Positions 803 to 45,106 of a DNA stretch of 45,106 nt are shown in pieces. Under the pieces are notes generated by a model, which did no database searches, was not told where the DNA came from, and saw nothing but the letters and a program-made list of their open reading frames with translations. Location: the IMG/VR virus record IMGVR_UViG_3300043411_002265, positions 1 to 45,106 of that record; one strand, given 5' to 3'. The stretch's first letter is position 1. The number at the start of each line of letters is the position of its first letter. Both the position numbers and the translations under genes were made by a program. Source of the stretch: a virus.

Positions 803-2380
803 CTATTGTAGGAATTCGTAGTCACCGGTCATGAACTGGTATGCTATGTTAGCAAAAACAGCGGAGTGAAGCCAGTCATCCGGTTCATCCGGGTGGTGGC
901 GGAACACCCTGCTCCCCGCAAAGGTCTCTTCCTCGAACACGTTCAAAGCGTCTTTCCAATGAGGCTCGTGGAGATCCCAGCAAGGAGTTTCAAACCTGTC
1001 CCGTCCCATACGTATCTTCATCAATACGTTGTCGATGGCCTGAGTGCGGTCGGCAGCCAGGAATAATCCTTGTTTATCCCACCGTAGCTTTATCTTGGCC
1101 ATGACGTAGTTTATAAGGATAACCTTGTCGAACCCAAGTTCTTTTTGCAGTAGTTGCCCCTGAAGCACCCCAACCCCCCTGTCAGCCCCTATCATCTGGC
1201 ATCTCCACTCCCGGAACAGTTGTACGGCCCTCTCCACCTGGGCAAGGATATGGATACCTTGCATCTTCTCGGAGTACAAGTTGTAGAGCTTACCTTGGTG
1301 GTCTACCCCTATCACCGTCATCACCGTAAAGGACTTCGTGGATCCTGTCACAGACCAGTCGATGCCCAGGATGCGATGGGTGAACTGCCCCGTCTGCGGG
1401 TGCTTGTAGGCGTAACTCTTCCACTCCTGGTTGCAACACGACAACGCCTCCCGGACGGAGATAGCCTTGCCGGCCAAGTCTGTAGCCAGCCCAAAAGCTT
1501 CGTTGGCGAGCTTGGCAGGGGAATATAGTCCTCCATTCAACGCCTGGTCTACCTTCTCCCGTATCCGCAACCATTTGTTCTGCCGGGTATTGGAGGTCAT
1601 GATGAACTGGGGGAGGTGGAAACCGATCTTGTTCTTGATATCGGTGGCGGCGATCCATCTACCCTCCGCCATGTTGATAGGCTTCAGACACCTGTCGCAG
1701 ACGGGGCCGATGTCCTTGCTGCAGATAATCATGCAGGTATCGTAGTTATCCGGGATAACGTGGTGTCCACAATGTGTACACTTGCACACCCACTCCATCC
1801 GGTTGGTAGTCATCCACGCCTGCTCCAGCGTGTTGGCGGTGGACTTAGATGTACCTGAGAGAACCTTGAATCCAAACTCCGAAGCGGAGAGAATCTCGTA
1901 GATAGGAACCAGCGCGTCCCATGAAACGTCCTGCACCTCGTCCACCAGCAACTGGTCCGCCATGATTCCCCGGATACGGTCAGCGTCGTGTTCGTTCTCT
2001 GCATAGGAGAGATAGATCTTCGATCCGTTGTTGAAGCTCTTCTCAAACACGTTACGAGTTGTGTTTGTATTGGTGAAGTGTTTCTTTACGAGTGGGGATC
2101 GGATCAGAGGGTCAACGTACATTCCACTGAATCGCTTCGTTTGAATCTGCAGGGGTGCTATGTACAAGGAGTTGAAGTGGCTTCGCAGGATGGACTTTGT
2201 TACCAGTCTTCCTCCCTGTGACACGGATTTTCCTACCTGTCTTCCGGCCTTGAGAACCATGAACTCAGGGTCGAGATCATACACCAACTCGAAGGGGAGG
2301 TAGTTGTCGAACGACAGCTTCGCCCCCTTCAAATCAAGTAGGGCAGTGGCAAGTCTGGAGGGTCTGGCGTTTACTTTCAT
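803..2380 (-). CDS. terL: Phage terminase large subunit (DNA packaging ATPase/nuclease)
   Basis: This is the motor that translocates genomic DNA into the procapsid through the portal and cuts it to length. The N-terminal ATPase domain shows a Walker A motif KAGRQVGKS (about residues 44-52) and a Walker B LLVDEVQD (144-151). The nuclease domain begins near residue 338 with GIDWSVTGS, the first acidic residue being D341, and a later GADRGVG supplies another. Between the two domains lies a Cys cluster (C199, C201, C204, C216, C220, C228, C231) that looks like a zinc-binding insertion. The 525 residues are a normal length for the family. The gene is divergent from the ubiquitin-like cassette. No strong ribosome binding site precedes the ATG at 2380. 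Confidence 0.9.
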   Translation of the reverse strand: MKVNARPSRLATALLDLKGAKLSFDNYLPFELVYDLDPEFMVLKAGRQVGKSVSQGGRLVTKSILRSHFNSLYIAPLQIQTKRFSGMYVDPLIRSPLVKKHFTNTNTTRNVFEKSFNNGSKIYLSYAENEHDADRIRGIMADQLLVDEVQDVSWDALVPIYEILSASEFGFKVLSGTSKSTANTLEQAWMTTNRMEWVCKCTHCGHHVIPDNYDTCMIICSKDIGPVCDRCLKPINMAEGRWIAATDIKNKIGFHLPQFIMTSNTRQNKWLRIREKVDQALNGGLYSPAKLANEAFGLATDLAGKAISVREALSCCNQEWKSYAYKHPQTGQFTHRILGIDWSVTGSTKSFTVMTVIGVDHQGKLYNLYSEKMQGIHILAQVERAVQLFREWRCQMIGADRGVGVLQGQLLQKELGFDKVILINYVMAKIKLRWDKQGLFLAADRTQAIDNVLMKIRMGRDRFETPCWDLHEPHWKDALNVFEEETFAGSRVFRHHPDEPDDWLHSAVFANIAYQFMTGDYEFLQ

Positions 2381-2489
2381 GCAAGTATCTGTACAGTCAA
2401 TATATTCCTATTTTACGGTATAAACAAAATGGGAGCCAGCGATGCTCCTAAAACACATGTGTTCAACGCCAAAAAAGAGGAACCTCAAA
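2381..2489. promoter_or_regulatory. Divergent promoter region between terminase and the ubiquitin-like gene
   Basis: This 109-base gap separates two divergent genes. On the plus strand it has CGGTATAAAC at about 2416-2425, an extended -10-like element. It is followed by a hairpin (GGGAGC...GCTCCT, about 2430-2449) in the presumed leader. The ribosome binding site AAGAGG at 2475-2480 precedes the small gene. An AT-rich stretch (ATATATTC) near 2398-2407 could serve the terminase in the other direction. No -35 element was identified with confidence. Confidence 0.45.
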
Positions 2490-2696
2490 ATGGCAAACCG
2501 CATCGAAGCTACAGAAATCAATGTCCCTGGCCGTAACACTTTCCGCGTACCTGGTGCGCTGAGTGTGGATGACGCCGTTGCTGCCTTCGGCGATGACCTC
2601 GGTCTTCGTGGAATGACTGGCTCTGTGGTTGACCCCACAGGCGACTCTACTACCCGCGTGCTGAATTTTGCACACAAGGTTGGTAACAAGGGCTAA
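2490..2696 (+). CDS. Ubiquitin-like protein resembling PRTRC system protein C
   Basis: Small 68-aa protein with a good AAGAGG site nine bases before the ATG. The predicted pattern is beta-grasp-like: strand (RNTFRVPG), helix (SVDDAVAAFGDD), then strands ending in RVLNFAHKVGNKG. The C-terminal GNKG ending closely resembles the GTKG ending I recall for PRTRC system protein C. A terminal Gly is what ubiquitin-like proteins need for E1 adenylation and conjugation, and no processing would be required because the Gly is already the last residue. It heads a cassette with E2-like, JAMM and E1-like genes, which strongly supports the role of modifier. A terminator follows directly, so this gene may be expressed far above the rest. 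The ubiquitin-like fold is inferred, not computed. Confidence 0.7.
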   Translation: MANRIEATEINVPGRNTFRVPGALSVDDAVAAFGDDLGLRGMTGSVVDPTGDSTTRVLNFAHKVGNKG

Positions 2697-2717
2697 ACCT
2701 GGCGTAACGCCGGGCTT

Positions 2718-2746
2718 GGGGGAGGGGCTTGCTCCTCCCTTTTTTT
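2718..2746 (+). terminator. Intrinsic terminator after the ubiquitin-like gene
   Basis: A GGGAGG/CCTCCC stem (2720-2725 with 2734-2739) is followed by seven T residues. It lies between the modifier gene and the 774-aa gene. Partial readthrough would give excess modifier over the enzymes. Confidence 0.8.
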
Positions 2747-2768
2747 GTTTATATACCGGAGACGTACC

Positions 2769-5093
2769 ATGGAAGCACCAGAAAAATCACTGTTAGACCG
2801 TTGGATGACTACCAAGTTTATTCCGCTGGTAGATCGCCACTCAATATTATCCGAGGGAGAGAGCATAGTAGACAGCCCTGTTCTCACCTACAGCAGTACC
2901 CTGCTGGAGTTGCTCTCCAGCATCGACCCAACCTACTTCCAACCCGCCCCCAACCATGACAACGAGGTTCTGTGGAACACCTTGAGAGCGGTGTTTGATA
3001 TGGACGGGTATGAGGACGGAGCAAGGCCATCTGAGGAGGAGTTCCTCCAGCTCTTCGAGAGAATTAAACAACACCGAGAGGTCCCCAAGATCGATTTCTA
3101 CTCCTTGTCCATGCTGATTGTACAGGAGCTTTCCAATAACGAGATCATGGAAATTCTATGGTCCCTGAGTATCTACGTGTACAGCACCAAGTCTCTTTTG
3201 ACAGGCTGCCGTTTTACGGATAACCAGCTGCAGGGTAACCCCTTGGGAGATTTGAGCTCCGCTATCACAAAATCAGGGGTACGCTCCGTCTCTGACACGA
3301 GAAAATCGAAGTACCTGTCATGGATGACCTCCGACACAGTTACGTACCCGGAGCTAACCGAACAAAGGGTGGAGGCCATCCAGGGCACAATCCAGTCCGT
3401 CGTTACTCATATCCTGGAAAGCATGGAGGATCTTGATGGGTACCTCCTCACCATGAACAAGATACTCTGCATACGGCTTCTTCTCAAGTACACCGCCTTC
3501 CTGTCCAGCTTCCGGGCTTTCAGAACGGAAGAGCTGGCAGCAAACAACGCGCTCCAGGTAGTGAAAAGCTACCATACCGGTCTTGTCGCATCGGGCGTAA
3601 GTAATAGTTTGTATGCCATGTCAGAGTCAGATGGGGGACTAGGACGCACCATCACGACGGCCCTGGCCCACAAGAGAATGCAGGGAAAGTCCATGTCCCC
3701 GGGTATGCTGAGAAACCTGGTTTTTCATCGAAGCTACACCTTCCCCGCTCTGTCCTCCTCCTACAGGCAGGAGCAGTGCTGCCTGAACACTTTGATCCTT
3801 GCGAGGTGGTACGGACTCCTGGAGAGGTCCTCCGAGGGTTCTCTGGAAGAGCTGTGCTTTGGTAGGAGTTCCTATGCACCGAGGCAGCACTTGTCGAACA
3901 GCTCTTCTGTAGCCATGTACGCCGCTGTTGGGGGGGTGATGGTACCCTGGGTAGAGCAGCAGGCGGAAGACCCTATGGAGATGGCGGATAAGGTGGACCT
4001 TGGTGGGGTTGTCCTGGTGTCTGACACTGACAAGACCAAAGTGTTAAACCGGGTTCTGAAAAGGATAGTCAGTGCGTCTCCTCTGGTGAGGGCAGAGGTG
4101 GAACACAGGGAAGTAACCTCAGGGGTACTGGACGCTGTTTTCCAGGAGTACATGGACACCGTGTTCACGGGGGGTGTCCCCTGGGAGAGCCTGGATGGAG
4201 CTCAGGCGGTGTACTTGCAGTATGTCTCCAGGTATTCCCACGGGGATGCCTCTCCTACTGATATAGATGCGGATGTACTGACTGATATGAGAAGAAGCGG
4301 GCTCTCCGCACTACGCCTGGAACAATACGCCTACGGAGAGATACCCCCCGCAGGGAGGGCCCCCGTGCCTGACCGGGGTGACCTCCTTCAGTTTGACTCC
4401 CGCTTTGGGGAGTACATTGGGAGCTCCCTATCCAGGTACCTGGGATTTCGTATGTCAGAACCGACGGTAGCTGCCATGAGACAAAAGATACGTAATACAC
4501 AAGATAGCAACCTCTCCAGACACACCTTGTTCTTGGGGGAGATGATCTCCTTCATACGGGACTGGCAGGAGCTCATGAGATGGAAGCACGTACATATCAT
4601 CAGAATGTCTGTGTCTACCTTTGTGGCAACCGTCGAGTTGGACAATACCAACACCCCGTACCCGGTGTTGACAAAAGGGTTTTCTTCTATAGGGAGGGCA
4701 GTCTATTGGGATGACCCATCTCATTCCGAAACTATGGATGAACTGATAGGGCATGTATCGTCTCCGGCTTCCGTGAGAACCGGGGTAGCCGACCCTACCT
4801 TGGACAGCCCACTGCTACCAGAAATGGGCTTGCAGTACTCCGTGATGGAAGGTCTGCTCCCGAAGGGACTGGGGGACTCCCCTTCTGGAATACCGGAAGG
4901 GCCTATCGTTACGAGGGCGCTGGGAAACCTACAGTTGTCCTACCCGAAGAAGGGGGAGGAGGAGACAGATGGGACGTTCGATCCGAGGTTCCTGTTTCAC
5001 CCCTCCCTGGCTATCACTGCGTACCGAAAGATGTCAGAAGCCGTGGACGTCGCACACAAGGTGTACACAACCGTTGAGAAAATGAGGTGCTGA
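2769..5093 (+). CDS. Large unknown protein of the ubiquitin-like cassette (774 aa)
   Basis: The ATG at 2769 is chosen because CCGGAG lies seven bases upstream; a longer frame begins at 2745 inside the terminator. The product is soluble, without a signal peptide or clear membrane segment, and looks largely helical through residue 400 (for example LEELCFGRSSYAPRQHL). The C-terminal half is mixed. I recognise no catalytic motif. By position it sits where PRTRC clusters, as I recall them, carry protein F, but it is about twice that length and no similarity could be shown. Candidate roles are substrate adaptor, E3-like factor or scaffold for the E2-like protein. The function is unassigned. Confidence 0.85.
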   Translation: MEAPEKSLLDRWMTTKFIPLVDRHSILSEGESIVDSPVLTYSSTLLELLSSIDPTYFQPAPNHDNEVLWNTLRAVFDMDGYEDGARPSEEEFLQLFERIKQHREVPKIDFYSLSMLIVQELSNNEIMEILWSLSIYVYSTKSLLTGCRFTDNQLQGNPLGDLSSAITKSGVRSVSDTRKSKYLSWMTSDTVTYPELTEQRVEAIQGTIQSVVTHILESMEDLDGYLLTMNKILCIRLLLKYTAFLSSFRAFRTEELAANNALQVVKSYHTGLVASGVSNSLYAMSESDGGLGRTITTALAHKRMQGKSMSPGMLRNLVFHRSYTFPALSSSYRQEQCCLNTLILARWYGLLERSSEGSLEELCFGRSSYAPRQHLSNSSSVAMYAAVGGVMVPWVEQQAEDPMEMADKVDLGGVVLVSDTDKTKVLNRVLKRIVSASPLVRAEVEHREVTSGVLDAVFQEYMDTVFTGGVPWESLDGAQAVYLQYVSRYSHGDASPTDIDADVLTDMRRSGLSALRLEQYAYGEIPPAGRAPVPDRGDLLQFDSRFGEYIGSSLSRYLGFRMSEPTVAAMRQKIRNTQDSNLSRHTLFLGEMISFIRDWQELMRWKHVHIIRMSVSTFVATVELDNTNTPYPVLTKGFSSIGRAVYWDDPSHSETMDELIGHVSSPASVRTGVADPTLDSPLLPEMGLQYSVMEGLLPKGLGDSPSGIPEGPIVTRALGNLQLSYPKKGEEETDGTFDPRFLFHPSLAITAYRKMSEAVDVAHKVYTTVEKMRC

Positions 5094-5095
5094 AA

Positions 5096-5455
5096 ATGAG
5101 TGTCCTGGTATTTGGGGTACCTCCCCAGGAACTTCCGGAGGTAGTAGAGGAGGATACGGTTGACGACCCTATTCCTCCCGGGTCCTTGCAGGCTTATAAG
5201 GATTCTGTGAGGGCCATACTGGACCTGGAGAACGCCTACACGAAGGCGGTGTTCTCCAAGGCGCCAGCCGGGGAGCTGGAAGACCTGGAGCAGCAAAGAC
5301 TGCGTTTGACCTACCTGGAATCCAGGCAGGGAGAGAGCGTTATGAAGGGAGTGAGGAAGATGAGCATGTCAGACGCCCCGGACCTGGAGGTAATCCTGCG
5401 GGAGTTCGTGGCGTCACAGAGTCTAAAAACACAGAAGGTGAGGAGATTTATATGA
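5096..5455 (+). CDS. Small acidic unknown protein of the ubiquitin-like cassette (119 aa)
   Basis: The start ATG at 5096 is preferred over the in-frame GTG at 5087 because GAGG, eight bases upstream inside the end of the previous gene, is correctly spaced for it. The N-terminus is acidic (PEVVEEDTVDDP). A long helical middle follows (YKDSVRAILDLENAYTKAVF, then a Glu/Leu/Arg-rich helix) that could form a coiled coil, and the C-terminus is basic (LKTQKVRRFI). It overlaps the E2-like gene by ATGA, which implies translational coupling and suggests a complex with that protein. No family is recognised. Confidence 0.8.
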   Translation: MSVLVFGVPPQELPEVVEEDTVDDPIPPGSLQAYKDSVRAILDLENAYTKAVFSKAPAGELEDLEQQRLRLTYLESRQGESVMKGVRKMSMSDAPDLEVILREFVASQSLKTQKVRRFI

Positions 5456-6654
5456 GTAGAGAAGAGGCCCTGTCCTCGGTGATTTATCTGGATGGCACGG
5501 TTCGGTGTACTACCCCATCAGGTAGCTCGAAACTGGTGTCACTCGAGTCCTACCGTAACATGTTGAGGGCGTCCAGGATTGTAGACGACGCCGTACAGAC
5601 GACCGCAGAGGAGGTGAGCTCTGTTTACGACCTTTCTCCACCCAGGAACCTTATCTCGATTGAGATAGTCACTGAAAAATCCACAAAAACCCGCAAGCTG
5701 CGGGTAATGTGTTTGTACCCAGAGGCCACAAACAAGATCCTGTTCGAGGGGAAGAAGGGGTCTGGGGTGCATCAGTCCTTCAACGTCAGGTACCCCAGGA
5801 TTCTTCTGTGCCATACCCTGCTGGAAGACAAAACTTCCCCGGGTACCTGGATCTGGGAGAACACAAAGTACTACACCGCGGTAAACCCTGACCCATCCTG
5901 GTACTTGGGAAAGCCGGGTATATTTACCGGGGATGGGCTGGACTCCACCAACCTTATGAGGCTTCCGTTCAACAATGCGTACAACGATGGAAACCTCTGT
6001 TATGGGTCCGTGTCCTTCAGCAGGTCGTTAAAAGCAGAGACTTTGAGCCAACTGGACTGGATGTACAACTTGCTGTCGGAGTCCGTGTATAACACAGACC
6101 TGGATTACGGAGGCTGTGTTGCAGACCTGGACACCTGCGTGTCGAAGTACCCGGAGTTGGCCCATCACAAGTCTCGGCTATACAAGCTCGGGTCGGCCTG
6201 GTGGTACGGGCTACTGGAGATGTTCGAGACATTTCCATACGACTTGCTGACAAGGATAGATCTCCATAAAGTACCCGATAACGTGTCCCGGAACGGGGTG
6301 CCAAAACGGGACGTCACCATGAGCACATCCAGCCTTACCACCCTCAGTGCGATAAAGTTCTTGAAGGAGGAGAAGGTGACCGATGGGCTTTCCACCAAGG
6401 AGATGGAACTGCTGTTGAGCCTGGTCGATGAGGGCATCCGTAAGCACGCGGAGGAGAAGGCGTACTACCAAATCATGGAGGAGAGGAAACGAGAAGCCCG
6501 GGAGGCTCAGAGTGGGCCCTTCTCCAGGCACACGCACAGTGGCTCCTCGCAACTGGACTGTCTTAGAACCATGGTGCCTACCCCGACCGTTCAACACCTG
6601 ATAGATATAGGCGTGGTTACGCCCAGGTGGGAACACCACGGGGTAGCCCCCTAG
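5452..6654 (+). CDS. E2-like conjugating protein resembling PRTRC system protein B
   Basis: The 400-aa product contains LPFNNAYNDGNLCYGSV at residues 171-187. This matches the signature I recall for PRTRC protein B (N-x-Y-x-x-G-x-x-C-x-G), where the Cys is the proposed E2 active site; here it is C183. An upstream VRYPRILLC strand (112-120) fits the E2 core strand before the active-site region. The N-terminal 100 residues and the C-terminal Lys/Glu-rich helix (about 300-365) are additional. The expected reaction is to accept the activated ubiquitin-like protein as a thioester and pass it to a target amine. Its ATG overlaps the upstream stop. A terminator follows at 6699-6727. The E2 assignment rests on one motif plus context. 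Confidence 0.65.
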   Translation: MSREEALSSVIYLDGTVRCTTPSGSSKLVSLESYRNMLRASRIVDDAVQTTAEEVSSVYDLSPPRNLISIEIVTEKSTKTRKLRVMCLYPEATNKILFEGKKGSGVHQSFNVRYPRILLCHTLLEDKTSPGTWIWENTKYYTAVNPDPSWYLGKPGIFTGDGLDSTNLMRLPFNNAYNDGNLCYGSVSFSRSLKAETLSQLDWMYNLLSESVYNTDLDYGGCVADLDTCVSKYPELAHHKSRLYKLGSAWWYGLLEMFETFPYDLLTRIDLHKVPDNVSRNGVPKRDVTMSTSSLTTLSAIKFLKEEKVTDGLSTKEMELLLSLVDEGIRKHAEEKAYYQIMEERKREAREAQSGPFSRHTHSGSSQLDCLRTMVPTPTVQHLIDIGVVTPRWEHHGVAP

Positions 6655-6680
6655 CAATAAAGCGAAAACCAGCGAAAAAA

Positions 6681-6690
6681 CTGGTATAAC
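6681..6690 (+). promoter_or_regulatory. Possible promoter element CTGGTATAAC
   Basis: An extended -10-like TGGTATAA lies in the gap before the JAMM gene. It sits just ahead of the terminator hairpin, so a transcript begun here would start with that hairpin. It may be a leader attenuator or a chance match. Confidence 0.3.
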
Positions 6691-6698
6691 ACCTTTGT

Positions 6699-6727
6699 AG
6701 GGCGGCATTCAGTCGCCCTGTTTTTTT
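6699..6727 (+). terminator. Intrinsic terminator between E2-like and JAMM genes
   Basis: An AGGGCG/CGCCCT stem (6699-6704 with 6714-6719) is followed by G and seven T residues. The ribosome binding site AAGAGG of the next gene starts one base after the T run, so readthrough or a leader function must feed the JAMM and E1 genes. Confidence 0.8.
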
Positions 6728-6740
6728 AAGAGGAAAAACA

Positions 6741-8165
6741 ATGGACATCTTGTTACCCGGCCTTCGTGCCAGCGTTACCCATCTCGAATACGCCTCTGGC
6801 GTAGGATCAGAATACCAGGAGCTGTTTATCACTACCGTGGAAGGTAAGGTGCTAAAACGGATATCCCTCCCGCACAACCGAAAGATGATACTCCCCGTAG
6901 ACAAGGTGCCTGTTGCCAAGAAGGATAACCTGCCTGAGGTAGTGGCGGACTTCGCAGGGTTCTTCCCGGGAGGACGGAAAATCCCGGTGAAATACCTGGA
7001 TCAGATCATTCAGTTCTTCAAGGCGTTCATGAAGATGAACCCAGGGGCTGCCAGTCAATACGCGGTTCAGCACAGCTACGAGGCGATGGCGCATATCGTC
7101 TGGAGCCCTGACACAGGGTACCGGGTAGCTATCCCGACCCAGATCGTATCCGGAGCGCATGTCTCCTATGAGTGGGACCACTTGGCTCCTAACGAAGTTG
7201 TCCTGGTTGATATCCACTCCCACAACTCCATGGGTGCGTTCTTCAGCGGAACAGACAATGGAGATGACAACAACAAGCTACAGTTCTCTGGAGTGATTGG
7301 ACAGTTGGACAAGCCTGTGCCCGCTACCAAGTGGCGGTTTAACGATACCAAAAACAAGTATGAGGATATCCAGATCAGCGATATCTTCGAAGCTGAGCCA
7401 TTTGAGGTTCCCAAGGAGTGGATGGACCGGGTATCAATCCGCACCTATCAGATCCCTTCTGTACCTTCGTACGGGCAAGCCGGTCAGCGCGGGGGGTACT
7501 ACCATAACCCTCGGCAGCGGAACGACAGAGGGCAGTTCAAGAAGAAAAGCGGAGTGTCCTCCATCTTTGCTCGCAAGGTCGGAGACCCGCTCCCGGAGAA
7601 GGCCCTGAGTCTGGAGGACCTGGAGCTTGACCTCGGAGCCTGGGGGGATTGGCCGGGTGCACCGGCAGAGTCCTCTGCTCCAGTAGAGCCGAAGTGGATA
7701 GGAGAGGATGACATCATCAGGTCGGACTTCACCGTGGTGCGCATGCCCTATTTCAAGGGGGTGGAGGAGTTGGAGAGTCGGTTCATCAACACCATGGATA
7801 TGGCGTACAGCCCAACAGGGGCGGTGGGTATCGACGTGCTTGACTCCCAGTACGACGCCTGGCTGGAGATCTTCGGTATAGACCTGAACACAAAGCCTGG
7901 CGATGTGTGGATAGACATGGCCTACGCAGTTCCGGCATACGCCATGGAAGGAACCCATGGGGACTTCATGGCCTGCCTGAACCCCGAAGACAACTACATC
8001 AGCATGCTGGAGCGGGTACACGTTCCTGTTCTGGTTACCACCGCCGAGAAAAACAGGCTGGAGTCCCTGGAAGGGGCGATGCTGAAACCTGTAACCACCA
8101 CGGCAGGGGTAGTAATGGAGCCCGTAAAGGATTCGCCTGAACCGGCGCTCCTTCCTGCTCCTTGA
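6741..8165 (+). CDS. JAMM/JAB (MPN+) metalloprotease resembling PRTRC system protein A
   Basis: The motif HSHNSMGAFFSGTD (residues 159-172) is a complete JAMM signature, H-x-H-x7-S-x2-D. H159, H161 and D172 are the predicted zinc ligands and E114 in SYEAMAHIVW is the likely general acid/base. JAMM enzymes cleave isopeptide bonds or trim ubiquitin-like proteins, so this is the predicted deconjugase of the cassette. The domain covers about residues 85-235. A low-complexity linker rich in Gly, Arg, Asn and Lys (about 245-275) follows. Then comes an acidic C-terminal region of about 195 residues with no recognised fold. AAGAGG lies seven bases before the ATG. It lacks the NlpC/P60 domain of lambda-type tail-tip proteins, which argues against a tail role. 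Confidence 0.85.
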   Translation: MDILLPGLRASVTHLEYASGVGSEYQELFITTVEGKVLKRISLPHNRKMILPVDKVPVAKKDNLPEVVADFAGFFPGGRKIPVKYLDQIIQFFKAFMKMNPGAASQYAVQHSYEAMAHIVWSPDTGYRVAIPTQIVSGAHVSYEWDHLAPNEVVLVDIHSHNSMGAFFSGTDNGDDNNKLQFSGVIGQLDKPVPATKWRFNDTKNKYEDIQISDIFEAEPFEVPKEWMDRVSIRTYQIPSVPSYGQAGQRGGYYHNPRQRNDRGQFKKKSGVSSIFARKVGDPLPEKALSLEDLELDLGAWGDWPGAPAESSAPVEPKWIGEDDIIRSDFTVVRMPYFKGVEELESRFINTMDMAYSPTGAVGIDVLDSQYDAWLEIFGIDLNTKPGDVWIDMAYAVPAYAMEGTHGDFMACLNPEDNYISMLERVHVPVLVTTAEKNRLESLEGAMLKPVTTTAGVVMEPVKDSPEPALLPAP

Positions 8166-8172
8166 CAACACG

Positions 8173-8192
8173 CCGGCTCTTACGGGAGCCGG
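8173..8192 (+). other. Hairpin in the JAMM-E1 gap
   Basis: A perfect seven-pair stem CCGGCTC/GAGCCGG with a six-base loop lies between the JAMM stop and the E1 ribosome binding site. The tail is T-rich but interrupted (CATTTCTTTT), so it is at best a weak terminator; mRNA processing or stabilisation is equally possible. Confidence 0.4.
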
Positions 8193-8218
8193 AACTCATT
8201 TCTTTTAGGAGATTCTCA

Positions 8219-11200
8219 ATGTTCGAATTCATTGCTGGTGACGCACTGCCCAGAAACATCTGGCTTGTTGGGTGTGGTGGTACGGGATCGCGTATCCTGC
8301 AGCCGTTGATGCAGCTCATCGCTAGTCGCAGGATCCCCTTGACTACAAACATCTTCCTCATCGACGGGGATACTGTCGAGGCGAAGAACTGTACCAGGCA
8401 GTTGTTCCTGCCCGAAGAGGTTGGGGACTATAAGGCCAACATCCTGGCGGACAGATACCACGAGCTGTACCCCAACATCAGCCTTATCCCTATCACCGGG
8501 TATCTCTCCGTGCGGGAGGTGCTGAAGCCCTTTATGGACCCATTGGTGGTGGAGGAGTTCAGGAACGCAGTGGAGACTTCTCTCGGTATTTCCGATGTGG
8601 TGTTTCACCCTGACACCGTGAATAACCTGTCAAAGTGCTGGTACGGACCGTTGTACGCCACGTACTTGGGAGTGCTGATCCAGAACATCCGTAAGTTCCT
8701 GCCACCGGAGTCCACAGCAGAAGACATACAGGAGTACATGATGGAGACCCTGCGAAGACTGTTTGGGGGGTCCTGGAAAGCGGTAGCTCTTAGAGCATTC
8801 CACTTCATACAGTACGTGCACCTGTCCAGGGGAATAGAAGGCTACAACCCTCCACCAGACTGGAGGGTGGCGTTCAACATGGTGAAACTCAGTTTCCCTG
8901 AATCCGGTCTGGACATCTCCACCCTCCCGGAGTGGACAAGAGAGGACGCCCTGAGCCTTGGGCTGTGGAGCAACTTCCACAAGTTGGAAAGCATCGTGCT
9001 TGGCGATTGGTCTCAGGAGGAGATGCTGGCTATCGGGGCAACTCTGTGGTTCACCAATAACTACACAGAGGACGGTGGAAGTATCCGGGATGGAATACAG
9101 GCGTTACACGACCTCACAGACCCGGGGGTCCTTAGACAAATATCCAGCTTGAAAATGGTATCCCCAATAGGGGCCGCGTACGCTTCTCCATGCAGCCCTC
9201 TCGACTCGGAGCGTAAAAATAATATAGTGTCACGGACACCACGGTTGGGTAGGTATAGCCTTGACTCTATGGTACCACTGCAGAAAGCGGTTAGCGGGTT
9301 TTGCTCCCCGGACATCATCATCCTGGCCGTAGACTCCCCCAACGCCAGGAAGGAGATACTGGCAGTTGCCACTCTGCTGACCAAGGACACGGAGTCAGAC
9401 CGCAGGCGCAAGATACTGGTAGTGGACCCGGGTAACGAGGATAACTTCGGACAGGTATCCGTAACTACTCTCGGAAAGAAGCTGCCCTTGCCTATCATGG
9501 ATTCCTTTGTCCCTGAGAAGGAGAAGGCGAAGTTCAACTGCGGTATGTCTACGGTCCACTACATGCCGGAGCCCTGCAGCTTCATTGGAATGGACCTGGA
9601 CATGCCTGGGCAGATAAAAGAGTTCCTGGAGCAGCTTCCCAACAAGGGGTTCTTCACAGAGAGCCTGGACTTCCTCCCATGGTCCCCCTTCTCGTTCCTG
9701 TTACGGAAAAAGAGTGAGGTAGCTGTCTCCTGTGCGGGGATGGACCAGACCCTGGCGATCAACAATGTGATGGCGTCCATGACGGTGTCCGCGTTGCAGA
9801 ACGCTATCTTCCAGGCGCCCGCTACGATGGAGACAAGCAGGTTCAGCCTGGTGTCTTCTGTCATGGGGCAGTCTACGGATATCCCCTGGTTCCGTCGAAA
9901 GATGGGAGAGGGTGACGTGGAAGACACCTCAATAGCCTATATGGGGGAGACCACAGAGACCCTGCTACTGGTCTACCGGTGCCAAGGTGTTGAGCACCTG
10001 GATGTGTATAACAAGGTCACCATGGAATGTATTTCGACCACCGCGGAAACCCCGATGTTCACCCTGGTGTTACAAGCCATGTACGAGGGGAACAACTACA
10101 GCACTGCGGATATCCTGAACGCGAAGATCGTTTTCGTGAGCCTGGTAGCTGGGGTTCCCTACCCAGTGTCCATCGTATCCACTCCAGGGTCCACCGGGAG
10201 ACAACAGTGTGGAGTCGTGCCCATGAGGTCGGCCCACGTCAGGATAACCCCGCTGGCGGTCAGTGAGGAGGCCTTTACAGAAGAGTGCGGAAGGGATTAC
10301 ACACCAGGGCCAGCTACGATAAGCCATGTGCTATTCCTGGCCGGTATCCTCTCGAACCCATCGGGCTACTCCAGCAAGGTCCTGGCGAAAAGCCTGGAGT
10401 CCCTTGAGGTCGTAAGCCTTGGGTACCGAGGTATCGTATCCGGATTCCTGGAAAACGCGCCAGAGTTACTGCCAGAGATCTTCACGCCGGATCCACTATT
10501 CCAGGATAACGGGGTATGGGAAGGCCTGTCCTCGGTGAGTTTGGCGATTGCGCATGCCAGGCTGAACACCCTGTCGTTAATGGAGCTTGTCAGGAAGAAG
10601 AGGGGGCTGTGGGGTGGAGAGCAACCGAAAGAGTTGAACACACTTTCCACCCTGGAGTTGATCGTGAAGGATACCGTAACCGCTGCTCAGTCCAGCGTTG
10701 TGGTATACGAGATGATTGTAGCCGGGGGAACGAATACCAGGCCCAGGTCTTCGTTATGGTACTTCGGAGTACCGACAACCCTGAAGTCTCCGTACTCCGA
10801 TACCGTCTTCATCAACGCTCCAAAGGACCCCCAGAGAATCTGGAGGCAAAAGGCGATACGGAAAACGATGTCCAATATCCGGGGGTTCATATACCAAGGA
10901 GCGGCAACCTCCTCCCCGTTTGGGCCTGCACCCGATAGGCTGCCAGTGTCGAACTCCATGTACCCCCCGAGAATCACGAAGTTGGTGTACCTGTGTGATA
11001 ATTCGACGGTGTCATCCAGGGGAGTCCTGACGAGGAGCTACCTGTTACGAAACACCCTGGTGTCCTCCGAGTTCTCGGTGAGGGAGCTTCAGCGTGTCTG
11101 TGGAAACGAACTGACCCTGGGGTATATCCTGGACGATGGGACTTGGCAGGAGTTCTCCAGGGGGGCGAAGCTTGTTCCGACGTCGAGGGACCCTGAGTTA

Positions 11201-11302
11201 GCGTTGGTTCTGTCGTGGAATGTAAACTTCCTGGACCCGTTGGTGAAGATAACCCGTGTCGCCCCTGTGGAGGAGACGGCGGCAGTGGAGGTAGCAGAAT
11301 AA
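8219..11302 (+). CDS. Very large ThiF/E1-like activating enzyme with a C-terminal extension
   Basis: The ATG at 8219 is chosen because TTTAGGAG lies seven bases upstream. Residues 13-23 (NIWLVGCGGTG) are the nucleotide-binding Rossmann loop. LIDGDTVEAKNCTRQLF (47-63) is the classic E1 signature, with R60 as the conserved Arg. After an insertion of about 260 residues come IIILAVDSPNARKEI (366-380), VVDPGNEDNFGQVSV (401-415) and SCAGMDQTLAINNVMAS (504-520). The last two resemble motifs I recall in PRTRC ThiF proteins, with C505 a candidate catalytic Cys. Predicted role: adenylate the C-terminal Gly of the 68-aa protein and charge the E2-like protein. At 1027 aa it is several times the length of bacterial ThiF proteins. 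Residues from about 535 onward match nothing I recognise. Confidence 0.8.
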   Translation: MFEFIAGDALPRNIWLVGCGGTGSRILQPLMQLIASRRIPLTTNIFLIDGDTVEAKNCTRQLFLPEEVGDYKANILADRYHELYPNISLIPITGYLSVREVLKPFMDPLVVEEFRNAVETSLGISDVVFHPDTVNNLSKCWYGPLYATYLGVLIQNIRKFLPPESTAEDIQEYMMETLRRLFGGSWKAVALRAFHFIQYVHLSRGIEGYNPPPDWRVAFNMVKLSFPESGLDISTLPEWTREDALSLGLWSNFHKLESIVLGDWSQEEMLAIGATLWFTNNYTEDGGSIRDGIQALHDLTDPGVLRQISSLKMVSPIGAAYASPCSPLDSERKNNIVSRTPRLGRYSLDSMVPLQKAVSGFCSPDIIILAVDSPNARKEILAVATLLTKDTESDRRRKILVVDPGNEDNFGQVSVTTLGKKLPLPIMDSFVPEKEKAKFNCGMSTVHYMPEPCSFIGMDLDMPGQIKEFLEQLPNKGFFTESLDFLPWSPFSFLLRKKSEVAVSCAGMDQTLAINNVMASMTVSALQNAIFQAPATMETSRFSLVSSVMGQSTDIPWFRRKMGEGDVEDTSIAYMGETTETLLLVYRCQGVEHLDVYNKVTMECISTTAETPMFTLVLQAMYEGNNYSTADILNAKIVFVSLVAGVPYPVSIVSTPGSTGRQQCGVVPMRSAHVRITPLAVSEEAFTEECGRDYTPGPATISHVLFLAGILSNPSGYSSKVLAKSLESLEVVSLGYRGIVSGFLENAPELLPEIFTPDPLFQDNGVWEGLSSVSLAIAHARLNTLSLMELVRKKRGLWGGEQPKELNTLSTLELIVKDTVTAAQSSVVVYEMIVAGGTNTRPRSSLWYFGVPTTLKSPYSDTVFINAPKDPQRIWRQKAIRKTMSNIRGFIYQGAATSSPFGPAPDRLPVSNSMYPPRITKLVYLCDNSTVSSRGVLTRSYLLRNTLVSSEFSVRELQRVCGNELTLGYILDDGTWQEFSRGAKLVPTSRDPELALVLSWNVNFLDPLVKITRVAPVEETAAVEVAE

Positions 11303-11308
11303 GAAGAA

Positions 11309-11366
11309 GAAAAAGCCCGGGTAGCGTCCGGGGTGCTTCAGCCCGGGTTACACCGGGCTTTTTTTG
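11309..11366. terminator. Bidirectional terminator between convergent genes
   Basis: A GCCCGG/CCGGGC stem (11341-11346 with 11353-11358) with seven T residues ends the E1 transcript. A second CCCGGG block at 11315-11320 next to an A run gives the leftward transcript a matching stem and T run. It closes the E1 gene and the leftward gene that ends at 11368. Confidence 0.75.
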
Positions 11367-11367
11367 G

Positions 11368-11784
11368 TTACAGCTTTTCTCTTGAAGTTTCAGTAACCGA
11401 ATCAACCACGTCGTAGGTAGCCATCTCCGCCCCCTGCTGGGTGTACAGGGTGAGCACCTTGGTACTCTTGTCCAGTTTCCAGGAACCGAGGGCAACGTCC
11501 TCCAGGGTTGACAAGCTGAGCTGGTACGACCTTGGTACCACCTCAAGGTCCCCTACCACACGGCCGTCAACCACAAGGTGTTGGAAACCGAGCAGAGTCG
11601 GGGTGAACGTGGAAACCAACACCCCTGCCACCAGCTCCTGTGTGGGGAGCGGCGTGGCGGTTACCGTGTTTCCCTTGATAAGGGAGAACGATACGTTGCC
11701 AGGAAGGACATCGATAATGCCGCCCTTGGCGTAAGCCAGGGTGACAGGGGTGTTGATTTCTACTACGAACTGGGTCACGTCCAA
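11368..11784 (-). CDS. Unknown 138-aa protein, probably beta-rich
   Basis: This is the last gene of a leftward group of five. The sequence alternates hydrophobic and Thr/Val-rich strands (GNVSFSLIKGNTVTATPL; LVVDGRVVGDLEVV), suggesting a beta-sandwich such as those in virion decoration or neck proteins. No signal peptide or catalytic motif is seen. It overlaps the upstream gene by 10 bases, so translation is probably coupled. The structural role is only a guess from fold character and neighbours. Confidence 0.75.
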   Translation of the reverse strand: MDVTQFVVEINTPVTLAYAKGGIIDVLPGNVSFSLIKGNTVTATPLPTQELVAGVLVSTFTPTLLGFQHLVVDGRVVGDLEVVPRSYQLSLSTLEDVALGSWKLDKSTKVLTLYTQQGAEMATYDVVDSVTETSREKL

Positions 11785-27820: not shown

Positions 27821-28615
27821 GTGTTTACTAACCCGTGGATTCCCGTGAACTTATCCTATTACTACGACTCCATCTGCAAGCAGCCTCTCCTGTCACGGGA
27901 CGAAGAAGAAGCCCTGTTCAACGTGGTCCGAGATACCACTGACCTCTACTCCGATAAGGAGAAGGCGGCAGCCAGGGACCGTATCATAACCGCTAACCTG
28001 AGGTTCGTCTTCCAGAAAGCCAAGGAGAAATCCAAGTCAGATCCGGAGATGTTCGAAGTGCTCATCGCTGCGGGAAACGAAGGGCTGTTGAAAGCCTTTC
28101 GAAAGTTCAATCCGGACAGAGGAATACGATTTCTATCCTACGCCGGATGGTGGGTGCTTCAGACGCAGTTGAAGGAGATGTCCCTCATGCGCATCGTAGC
28201 CCTACCCATTTGGAAACAGCAGCTTGCTGCCAAGATAGCCAGGATACAACTGGACTCGGAAGACCAGGTTCCTATTGATAAGCTGTGCGAGATATTCCCA
28301 GAACACAGCCGTTCAGTTGTGGAGGAGCTTTCTTCCACCAAGTACCTCACCTACTACTTTGAGGATTTCATGGAGGACAACTCCACGTTCGAGGAGGAGT
28401 ACGCCTCGTACCTGCAGGAGGAATCCGAAGACCTCTCCTCTCTCTGCATGAAGCTCCCGCATCCCTGTGGGATGGTCCTTATTATGTACTTCGGACTGCA
28501 CGACGGAATCCGCCGCGGAACAAAATACGTTTCTGCCTCTTTGGGCATTTCAGTAGATGAGGTAAAGAAAGCGAGGAAGAAAGGGCTGGCTATCCTGCAC
28601 CATTTACTCTGTTAA
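27821..28615 (+). CDS. Phage-encoded sigma-70-family RNA polymerase sigma factor
   Basis: The GTG start at 27821 has TAAGGG upstream. The sequence shows sigma region 2: ITANLRFVFQKAKEKS, then VLIAAGNEGLLKAFRKFNPD, then IRFLSYAGWWVLQTQLKEM (regions 2.1-2.4, polymerase-clamp and -10 contact). The C-terminal region 4 has a helix-turn-helix (VSASLGISVDEVKKARKKGL). A short region 1.2-like helix (LLSRDEEEALFNVV) is at the front. It would redirect host or phage RNA polymerase to phage promoters, perhaps the GGTATAAG sites. It stands alone on the plus strand between leftward genes. Confidence 0.85.
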   Translation: MFTNPWIPVNLSYYYDSICKQPLLSRDEEEALFNVVRDTTDLYSDKEKAAARDRIITANLRFVFQKAKEKSKSDPEMFEVLIAAGNEGLLKAFRKFNPDRGIRFLSYAGWWVLQTQLKEMSLMRIVALPIWKQQLAAKIARIQLDSEDQVPIDKLCEIFPEHSRSVVEELSSTKYLTYYFEDFMEDNSTFEEEYASYLQEESEDLSSLCMKLPHPCGMVLIMYFGLHDGIRRGTKYVSASLGISVDEVKKARKKGLAILHHLLC

Positions 28616-43235: not shown

Positions 43236-45106
43236 GTGGCCATACGAAACATCTTCACTGACCCGTCCCAAACCGAGGAGCTCTCCAAGAGGGAACTCTT
43301 GAAGGGAATCCAGTCCCAGTTTCCTGTGGAGACGGGGGAGTACCGCCTGGAAGCCTCGGATATTGTCGTAGATGACTCCCCCCTTACAAAGGCGGAGGAG
43401 AAGGACGCGCTGTTGAAGACAAAATCGGTCATGCGACACGTTCGGGGGACCCTAACCCTGAAGGACAAGCGCACAGGTAAAGTTTTGGACGTGGAGAAGA
43501 ACTTCCCCTTGTCTGACTTCTACAAGATGACCGATAAGCACACCCTGATCTACAAGGGAAACAACTACTCCATCGCCAACCTTATCCAGCTCATGCCCGG
43601 CGTGTACACCCGCAGCAAGAAGGATGGGGAGCTGGAAGCACAGATCAATACCGGTACGGGTCGTGGCTTATCTATGCAGTTAAACCCCGAATCCGGGGTG
43701 TTCACTATGATGGCTCAGGGGTCCAAGGCAAAGATCCCGGTGGCACCCCTCCTTACCGAAGTCTTCGGGGTGACCGCCCGAGAGGTGTCCCAGTACATCC
43801 CAGGGGATGTGTGGGCCAAAAGCTCCGCCAACCTTACCCCCGTGAAGGTGACTGGGGCTATCGACACCTTGTACTCCAGTGTAGTTGACCGATCTCTGCA
43901 GAAGCCTGGCGCTTCCTACGATGACAAGCGTCTGGCAGTTAGGCAGGCATTGGAGAAGTCCCAGTTGTCACCAGTAACTACTAAGATCACACTTGGTGTA
44001 GAGAAGGAGGCAATTGACAAAGAGGTCCTCCTAAAGGCGATGAAGAACATCGTTGACGTACACACGGGTGTACGCGAGGAAGACAACCGTGACTCACTGG
44101 AGTTCAAGAGGGTGCAGAGCCTCCCCGACTTTGTTCGGGACCGCTTCGCTAAGGAAGACGAGTCTGTCAAGAAGGTGAAGAAGCACCTGACCTACCGCCT
44201 TACCCGTATCGACCAGGAAGAGCCGAAGATCAAGGGGGTTATCGGAGCGAAGCCGTTCAAGGACGTGTTCTCCAACATCATTGTTCGGAGTAACCTATCC
44301 TCCACCCCGACCGAAACCAATCCACTGGAATCCTTGGAGAACGTAGGAAAGGTTACCGCTATCGCTGCCGGTGAGGGTGGTATGAGTAGCAGCCGTATGG
44401 CTGACTTCAACACCAAGAACATCCACCCGTCTCACCTTGGCATCATCGACCCGAGCCGTACCCCGGAATCCGGGAACGCAGGCCTTGACCAGCGTTTCAC
44501 CATTTCCGCCATGCGAGACGACAAGGGTATTCTGTATTCCAAGCTGACCAATGCCAAGACCGGGAAGGAGGAGGCGGTCTCCGCACAAAAGCTGATGTCA
44601 GTAGCTGTTGGATTTCCACACCAGAAAGGTACTAAGGTGTACGCCCAGGTGAAAGGTAAGATCCTGGAGGTGGATCGCTCCAAGGTGGACTACTGGATTC
44701 CTGACAGCACCCACATGTACACCGTTACCACCAACATGGTTCCCTTTATGGGGAACAACCACCCTGGCCGTTTGACTATGGCTGGCAAGGCCTTGACGCA
44801 AGCCCTTTCCCTGGAGAACCGGGAGGTTCCACTGGTTCAGACCATGGCTCCCTCCGGCAGATCTTTCTCCAAGGACTTTGGAGAGTTCATCAGCACCCGG
44901 TCACCCGTAGACGGCACGGTAGAACGAGTTGCTACAGACCAGATTGTTCTTCGAGACAAGGAAGGAAAGCTGCACAAGGTGGAGCTCATCAAGAATATGC
45001 CTTTTAACGCGAAGGGGTTCCATGATGATATCCCGGTTGTGAAGGCGGGGGACGCTGTCAAGAAGGGGCAGGTCATCGCGGATAACACCTACACCAAAGA
45101 CGGTCA
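43236..45106 (+). CDS. RNA polymerase beta subunit homologue (partial, continues off the right edge)
   Basis: A GTG start with GGAAG eight bases upstream opens about 623 codons before the window ends. It aligns by eye with bacterial beta: MTDKHTLIYKGNNYSIANLI and LMPGVYTRSKKDG (about 98-131), EDNRDSLEFKRVQSLPDF (about 282-299), NPLESL through GKVTAIAAGEGG (362-382, the rifampicin-region equivalent), IHPSHLGIIDPSRTPESG (396-413) and, near the edge, NMVPFMGNNHPGRL and PVVKAGDAVKKGQVIAD. This is a genuine multisubunit polymerase relative, as in giant phages. It lies directly behind the portal, possibly so the enzyme can be packaged. The catalytic beta C-terminus and beta-prime are outside the window. 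Confidence 0.85.
   Translation, partial: MAIRNIFTDPSQTEELSKRELLKGIQSQFPVETGEYRLEASDIVVDDSPLTKAEEKDALLKTKSVMRHVRGTLTLKDKRTGKVLDVEKNFPLSDFYKMTDKHTLIYKGNNYSIANLIQLMPGVYTRSKKDGELEAQINTGTGRGLSMQLNPESGVFTMMAQGSKAKIPVAPLLTEVFGVTAREVSQYIPGDVWAKSSANLTPVKVTGAIDTLYSSVVDRSLQKPGASYDDKRLAVRQALEKSQLSPVTTKITLGVEKEAIDKEVLLKAMKNIVDVHTGVREEDNRDSLEFKRVQSLPDFVRDRFAKEDESVKKVKKHLTYRLTRIDQEEPKIKGVIGAKPFKDVFSNIIVRSNLSSTPTETNPLESLENVGKVTAIAAGEGGMSSSRMADFNTKNIHPSHLGIIDPSRTPESGNAGLDQRFTISAMRDDKGILYSKLTNAKTGKEEAVSAQKLMSVAVGFPHQKGTKVYAQVKGKILEVDRSKVDYWIPDSTHMYTVTTNMVPFMGNNHPGRLTMAGKALTQALSLENREVPLVQTMAPSGRSFSKDFGEFISTRSPVDGTVERVATDQIVLRDKEGKLHKVELIKNMPFNAKGFHDDIPVVKAGDAVKKGQVIADNTYTKDG

Follow-up and report, generated by a model that had tools for sequence, protein, structure and literature searches.

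The window analyzed here is the whole of IMG/VR virus record IMGVR_UViG_3300043411_002265 (45,106 bases, an incomplete record). Six consecutive plus-strand genes at 2490-11302 encode, in this order, a ubiquitin-like modifier (Ubl), two proteins without family, an E2-like protein, a JAMM metalloprotease (JAB) and an E1-like enzyme (Table 1). Within a clade of large phages, this cassette belongs to the core genes; it probably constitutes a phage-encoded, reversible ubiquitin-like protein-conjugation pathway, conjugation as such being very likely. More tentatively, the pathway may be essential to a lytic clade, with E1, E2 and JAB packaged in the virion and acting covalently, by tagging and untagging, on virion or assembly proteins of the phage itself, or on injected or host proteins.

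Family searches with the window alone identified the JAB and the E1, missed the Ubl and hinted at the E2 through a weak Prok-E2_D match (0.039) over a stretch including C183; the same model matches 29 of 36 aligned E2s. Single-protein scans of IMG/VR with P0006, P0005 or the terminase returned nothing, and alignment-based scans were needed to recover relatives. Leave-one-out hidden Markov models (HMMs) were built from relatives (phage records and IMG/VR), with the window proteins excluded, and searched against the 341 open reading frames (ORFs) of the window. The sole significant match of each profile was the expected gene, which excludes chance for the Ubl, E2, JAB and E1. The catalytic residues are intact in the window and kept across 63-81 relatives. 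The six-gene set described in a first-pass annotation of this DNA is complete, and its Ubl, E2-like (C183), JAMM and E1-like assignments are recovered by the profiles. Among 76 distinct JAB loci, we observed an E1 in all 76, an E2 in 63 and the order E2-JAB-E1 in 59.

In the E2-like protein, P115, N175 and C183 are invariant in 63/63 relatives. Classical E2s such as UBC9 carry an HPN-x7-C motif, and N175-x7-C183 has the same spacing, minus the His. The E2s of type 6d operons likewise lack the classical His (Iyer et al., PMC1779556). For the AlphaFold model of the protein (predicted local distance difference test, pLDDT, 76.7), E2 enzymes lead the structural neighbours, with Ubc12, UBE2D3, UBE2N, UBE2L3, UFC1 and Cap2 aligned over residues ~50-266 (VIA rows only, Foldseek rows excluded), a predicted structure that supports the assignment and is no proof alone. 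The JAMM motif of the JAB is complete (E114, H159-S-H161-x7-S169-x2-D172), and these residues are conserved in 75-76 of 77 relatives. In three relatives, Acinetobacter phage ME3, L097 and L098, the JAB gene is interrupted exactly at the HxH codons, a pattern typical of conserved, expressed genes. In ME3 (L005, 3799-6909), the insert has a group I intron (81 bits; gathering cut-off 50) along with a tRNA-Met and further ORFs; for the split genes of L097 (about 4942-7384) and L098 (about 5126-6796), the group I scores are lower, at 33 and 29 bits.

The best start of the E1 gene is the ATG at 8219, with AGGAG upstream, giving 1027 aa; the alternative TTG at 8162 gives the 1046-aa form to which our residue numbers refer. 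The enzyme has the putative ATP-binding residues, conserved across relatives (G37xGG, D68, N76, R79, K91 and D391), and a candidate catalytic Cys, C524, which is conserved in 73 of 81 proteins and lies in an SC motif not named in the first-pass annotation. The best PDB match of the E1 family profile is ubiquitin E1 (2.6e-12); at the sequence level, the PDB held nothing similar to the E2 or the JAB and yielded chance matches only for the Ubl. Compared with its relatives, the window E1 is longer by ~450 aa at its C-terminus and by a ~265-aa insertion that follows residue 117. The enzymes had been described as enlarged, which holds for the window member and not as a general trait, since E1s of most relatives measure 230-500 aa. 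A separate large-phage lineage (L053, L063, L065, L069, L073, L077 and L078) carries two E1-like genes, possibly encoding a two-subunit E1; its E2-like protein, where visible, is ~800 aa long, and in several members the two E1s flank a Ubl that has additional N-terminal sequence and ends in GxKG.

The Ubl residues K67 and G68 are invariant in 32/32 aligned units. The AlphaFold model (pLDDT 84.7) shows a beta-beta-alpha-beta-beta arrangement with a loose tail ending at G68, and its structural neighbours, with Z reaching 4.9, are preSUMO-2, SUMO-2, ubiquitin and protein G/L. This beta-grasp-type topology with a C-terminal Gly agrees with the fold expected in the first-pass annotation and, at Z below 5, backs the assignment while being no proof by itself. 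Weak Ubl matches to DUF4265 (0.18) and lanthipeptide SflA (0.035) were dismissed as chance. Of 7,251 ORFs of at least 50 aa in the collected loci, 34 end in G-x-K-G; 33 are Ubls or Ubl-like ORFs of cassettes and the remaining one is an antisense ORF in the window. This end is specific to cassette Ubls. A Ubl profile search of the loci further revealed head-to-tail Ubls in 12 distinct phage loci, a count that leaves out the two separate Ubl genes of L034. Several contigs have a double Ubl, Vibrio phage D69 has three copies, Bacillus phage KLEB27-3 and L049 have four, and L054-L056 and L066 have six. Each unit ends in G[TV]KG and is followed directly by another unit, by a linker or by a short tail, the last of which would have to be taken off by a protease. 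These boundaries are strong sequence evidence that would place the mature C-terminus at the GxKG Gly and point to the JAB as processing protease. The window Ubl is a single unit with its stop directly after GNKG and does not need processing. In L062, L074, L075, L080 and L087, Ubls carry long C-terminal extensions (up to ~110 aa) past GTKG, cleavage after which would expose the Gly.

A terminase search of IMG/VR, independent of the cassette, yielded 53 loci, of which 34 included roughly 9 kb or more of sequence on the upstream side of the terminase; several of these contigs are near-copies, and independent phages are fewer than 34. By hand count, 32 of the 34 carry Ubl, E2, JAB and E1 upstream, then the same tail-to-tail neighbour, and the other two have the JAB elsewhere in the record. 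All four isolates with a window-type terminase (Arash, D69, D181 and D148) possess the cassette, whose usual place in the clade is between the terminase gene and the virion genes. The first-pass annotation considered such a full set unusual in a phage with its own RNA polymerase subunit, but it is the rule in the window's clade. Other phage lineages, including those of ME3 and KLEB27-3, have the cassette in different surroundings.

From the parts, their order and intactness, the conserved core and the unit boundary, we infer the following reactions. The E1 would adenylate the C-terminal Gly68 of the Ubl and hold it as a thioester, with C524 as candidate, before passing it to C183 of the E2. 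The E2 would then link the Ubl to an amino group of the target, most likely a lysine, through an isopeptide bond, and genes 2 and 3 may help to choose targets. The JAB would free Ubl units from the polyUbl or C-terminally extended precursors of relatives and would strip the Ubl off targets, making the modification reversible. Virion or assembly proteins of the phage itself are the leading candidates for these targets, although at somewhat less than even probability, as suggested by the position of the cassette between terminase and virion genes, its clade-wide presence, and the virion content of the related Salmonella phage Arash, in which E1, JAB and E2 were detected in purified particles by liquid chromatography-mass spectrometry (MS) (PMC10585845). 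The published table lists 116 proteins of sucrose-purified particles, including Gp246, 247, 248, 249 and 251 (PMC10585845), and the deposited annotation labels E1 (gp246) and E2 (gp248) as 'structural protein'. The paper counts 252 coding sequences (PMC10585845), whereas gp251 is the last in the GenBank record; from the genes that GenBank labels structural, the paper's numbers look to run one above GenBank's after gp239. Under either numbering, E1, JAB and E2 are on the virion list.

Several points weigh against the conjugation pathway or its virion targets. No Ubl conjugate has been seen, genes 2 and 3 fit no assigned role, structural matching of the E2 fold is weak (no Z above 5.0), and plain Foldseek with the whole E2 model returned noise only (major histocompatibility complex class II). 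The Arash list also has primase, DNA ligase and ribonucleotide reductase, and its authors allow for carry-over (PMC10585845). In ME3 and KLEB27-3, the cassettes are near nucleic-acid genes, away from virion genes; since these surroundings differ, synteny within one clade does not fix the target. The annotated Arash gp251c is a wrong-frame ORF over the Ubl, whose true frame is L002 107-307, equal to OQ632216.1 complement 180513-180713 (MSTSIRATVVHIPGRD...RRTGTKG). The entry needs correction, and the Ubl was out of reach of any search limited to the annotated protein set. Trypsin would cut after the penultimate Lys of the Ubl, so that the target lysine would keep one Gly (+57.0215), a remnant isobaric with carbamidomethyl. 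Iodoacetamide was used in the Arash study (PMC10585845). Because the remnant has the mass of the iodoacetamide adduct, ordinary proteomics would miss conjugates.

The ME3 and KLEB27-3 surroundings bear on a different possibility, namely anti-defence or host takeover, in which host proteins (defence sensors, RNA polymerase, proteases) would be disabled by conjugation of the Ubl. Both cassettes have RNA-repair and nucleotide genes as neighbours, as is typical for takeover of a host, and virion-packaged enzymes (PMC10585845) could act immediately upon injection. Yet accessory counter-defence genes are usually patchy, whereas the cassette is clade-wide and fixed beside the terminase, and no PADLOC family was found apart from a generic E1 similarity. 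The window E1 matched the BilD and E1-E2 models weakly (0.0075 and 3.6e-5), and the PADLOC models of the other components (E2, JAB and Ubl) had no match in the window. We regard host proteins as the next most likely targets after virion or assembly proteins, at clearly less than even probability.

Since the E1 belongs to the ThiF superfamily, the Ubl might instead be a sulfur carrier, thiocarboxylated like ThiS/MoaD and acting as sulfur donor for a cofactor, a tRNA or an amino acid. The combination of a JAB and an E2 whose Cys is invariant argues for protein conjugation rather than sulfur carriage. Such an E2, a JAB in all lineages and polyUbl precursors are foreign to ThiS/MoaD pathways, and family searches turned up no sulfurtransferase in the cassette, which makes this explanation improbable.

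The first-pass annotation had likened this cassette to the PRTRC clusters of plasmids, which comprise the proteins C, F, B, A and ThiF and apparently correspond to the type 6d operons (Iyer et al. 2006, PMC1779556). The plasmid order, read from annotated L141, is Ubl, helical protein, E2, JAB and E1, and that of the window agrees, gene 2 being the equivalent of the fast-evolving alpha-helical PRTRC_F by position only. The JAB and E1 are homologous in both systems, both E2s keep the Cys in the absence of the classical His, and the Ubl of phage-borne PRTRC ends in GTKG, like the GxKG end of the window family. PRTRC_A and PRTRC_ThiF are the best NCBIfam matches of the window JAB and E1, at 70.4 bits (curated cut-off 101.8) and 60.5 bits (curated cut-off 144.75), both short of the threshold. 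The PRTRC_C model for the Ubl left the window Ubl unmatched and matched 10 of 32 relatives; Prok_Ub likewise missed it and matched 7 of 32. PRTRC ParB was found in none of 14 phage records (five isolates among them; the window record is incomplete). In a tree of JAB, E1 and E2, the window falls in a phage clade (support 1.00) apart from plasmid PRTRC (support 1.00), and, with 84,980 species genomes of bacteria and archaea scanned, no JAB was found that falls inside the window clade. The window family further differs from PRTRC by an extra small gene before the E2, by frequent polyUbl in relatives and by being a terminase-linked core module. The resemblance therefore stands for gene order and homology and fails for membership: scores under the cut-offs, ParB and tree position indicate what we call a PRTRC-like, phage-specific sister system, working like PRTRC. 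Gene order and best NCBIfam matches would also be expected of a recently acquired plasmid-type PRTRC with its plasmid-linked role; the sub-threshold scores, the lack of ParB in those records and the separate clade, with no bacterial sequence found inside, make this very improbable, the tree already disfavouring it. Burkholderia phage BgVeeders33 and IMG/VR L039-L041 and L081 carry a phage-borne, nearly canonical PRTRC with full Ubl, F, E2, JAB and E1, and these cassettes group with plasmid PRTRC, unlike that of the window. Finally, decaying or inactive relic genes, to which the enlarged and divergent window enzymes might point, are hardly credible given the open frames, intact catalytic residues, core conservation and MS detection of Arash JAB, E1 and E2.

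Other known systems share part of the cassette. Bil and type II CBASS, which are bacterial antiphage defences, use the same E1, E2 and JAB chemistry and are host-encoded, whereas the window cassette is phage-encoded; Bil is reported to tag phage tail proteins. Phage polyUbl resembles eukaryotic polyubiquitin in its head-to-tail units and in a protease cut after the terminal Gly, but its units end in GTKG instead of GG and are presumably cut by the JAMM protease, not by cysteine deubiquitinases. The lambda tail assembly proteins I and K (Ubl and JAB-NlpC/P60) combine, within a cluster of structural genes, a JAB and a phage Ubl that has a Gly at its end (PMC1779556). Lambda-type clusters are described without E1 or E2 and would serve processing only, in contrast to the full conjugation set of the window. 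Our literature search, with preprints and most subscription journals outside its coverage, retrieved no study linking PRTRC, phage and ubiquitin-like proteins and none on phage Ubl conjugation cassettes.

In bacteria, the main role known for ubiquitin-like conjugation is host defence. In the present case, the full pathway belongs to a virus and is kept clade-wide, and some members encode the modifier as a polyprotein. If the phage pathway is indeed essential, covalent tagging would be a normal step of viral morphogenesis or early infection, beyond bacterial defence. Arash, Vibrio D69, Bacillus KLEB27-3 and Acinetobacter ME3 provide cultured test cases for prokaryotic E1-E2-JAB function, and the cassette phages bear on whether polyubiquitin-type precursors arose independently in viruses. 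In practice, they expose a blind spot, a one-glycine tryptic remnant hidden by the iodoacetamide adduct mass.

Table 1. Cassette genes, putative terminators and flanking genes in the window.
Feature	Position	Strand	Evidence
Terminase large subunit, transcribed divergently from Ubl, cassette flank, clade-defining	803..2380	-	phrog_675 6.2e-50; 61% identity to Arash terminase
Ubiquitin-like modifier (Ubl), 68 aa, mature C-terminus VGNKG-stop	2490..2696	+	leave-one-out HMM 1.2e-10
Terminator-like hairpin 3' of Ubl gene	2718..2741	+	consensus match only
Gene 2, 774 aa, no family	2769..5093	+	position kept, sequence not alignable
Gene 3, 122 aa, GTG start, no family	5087..5455	+	only position kept
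E2-like conjugating enzyme, 400 aa, candidate thioester C183	5452..6654	+	leave-one-out HMM 1e-25
Terminator-like hairpin, E2/JAB gap	6697..6721	+	consensus match only
JAMM/JAB metalloprotease, 474 aa	6741..8165	+	PRTRC_A 1.4e-19; Prok-JAB 3.2e-8; leave-one-out HMM 1e-68
E1-like adenylating enzyme, ThiF domain with inserts	8219..11302	+	ThiF 4.3e-13; PRTRC_ThiF 1.5e-16; leave-one-out HMM 4e-51
Terminator-like hairpin at cassette end	11340..11359	+	consensus match only
Neighbour gene, tail to tail with E1	11368..11784	-	phmmer matches to 27 other ORFs of loci

As presented in Table 1, a terminator-like hairpin follows the Ubl gene, which could allow an excess of the Ubl over the enzymes. Gene 2 had no Pfam family match, and a small protein occupies the place of gene 3 in most relatives; profile comparison of both with the corresponding genes of other phages yielded nothing for the window. 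A weak DUF1681 match of gene 3 (0.006) was dismissed as chance.

Towards the end of the window, 43236-45104 encodes the N-terminal half of a phage RNA polymerase beta-like protein (Rpb2 domain 3, 3.8e-6), cut off by the record end, which bears out the polymerase subunit reported in the first-pass annotation. A sigma-70 region 2 protein is encoded at 27821-28615. The phage RNA polymerase beta was present in 6/6 long records tested of the window clade and in 1/12 other cassette records tested. We therefore rejected it as a required partner, and the polymerase is not functionally tied to the cassette. The tail-to-tail neighbour of the E1 gene has a conserved C-terminal part, GSWxWDK..LTMxRQDGT, and its Arash relative is gp245, annotated as a virion structural protein. 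In L102 (3487-4734), three copies of this module occur within one ORF.

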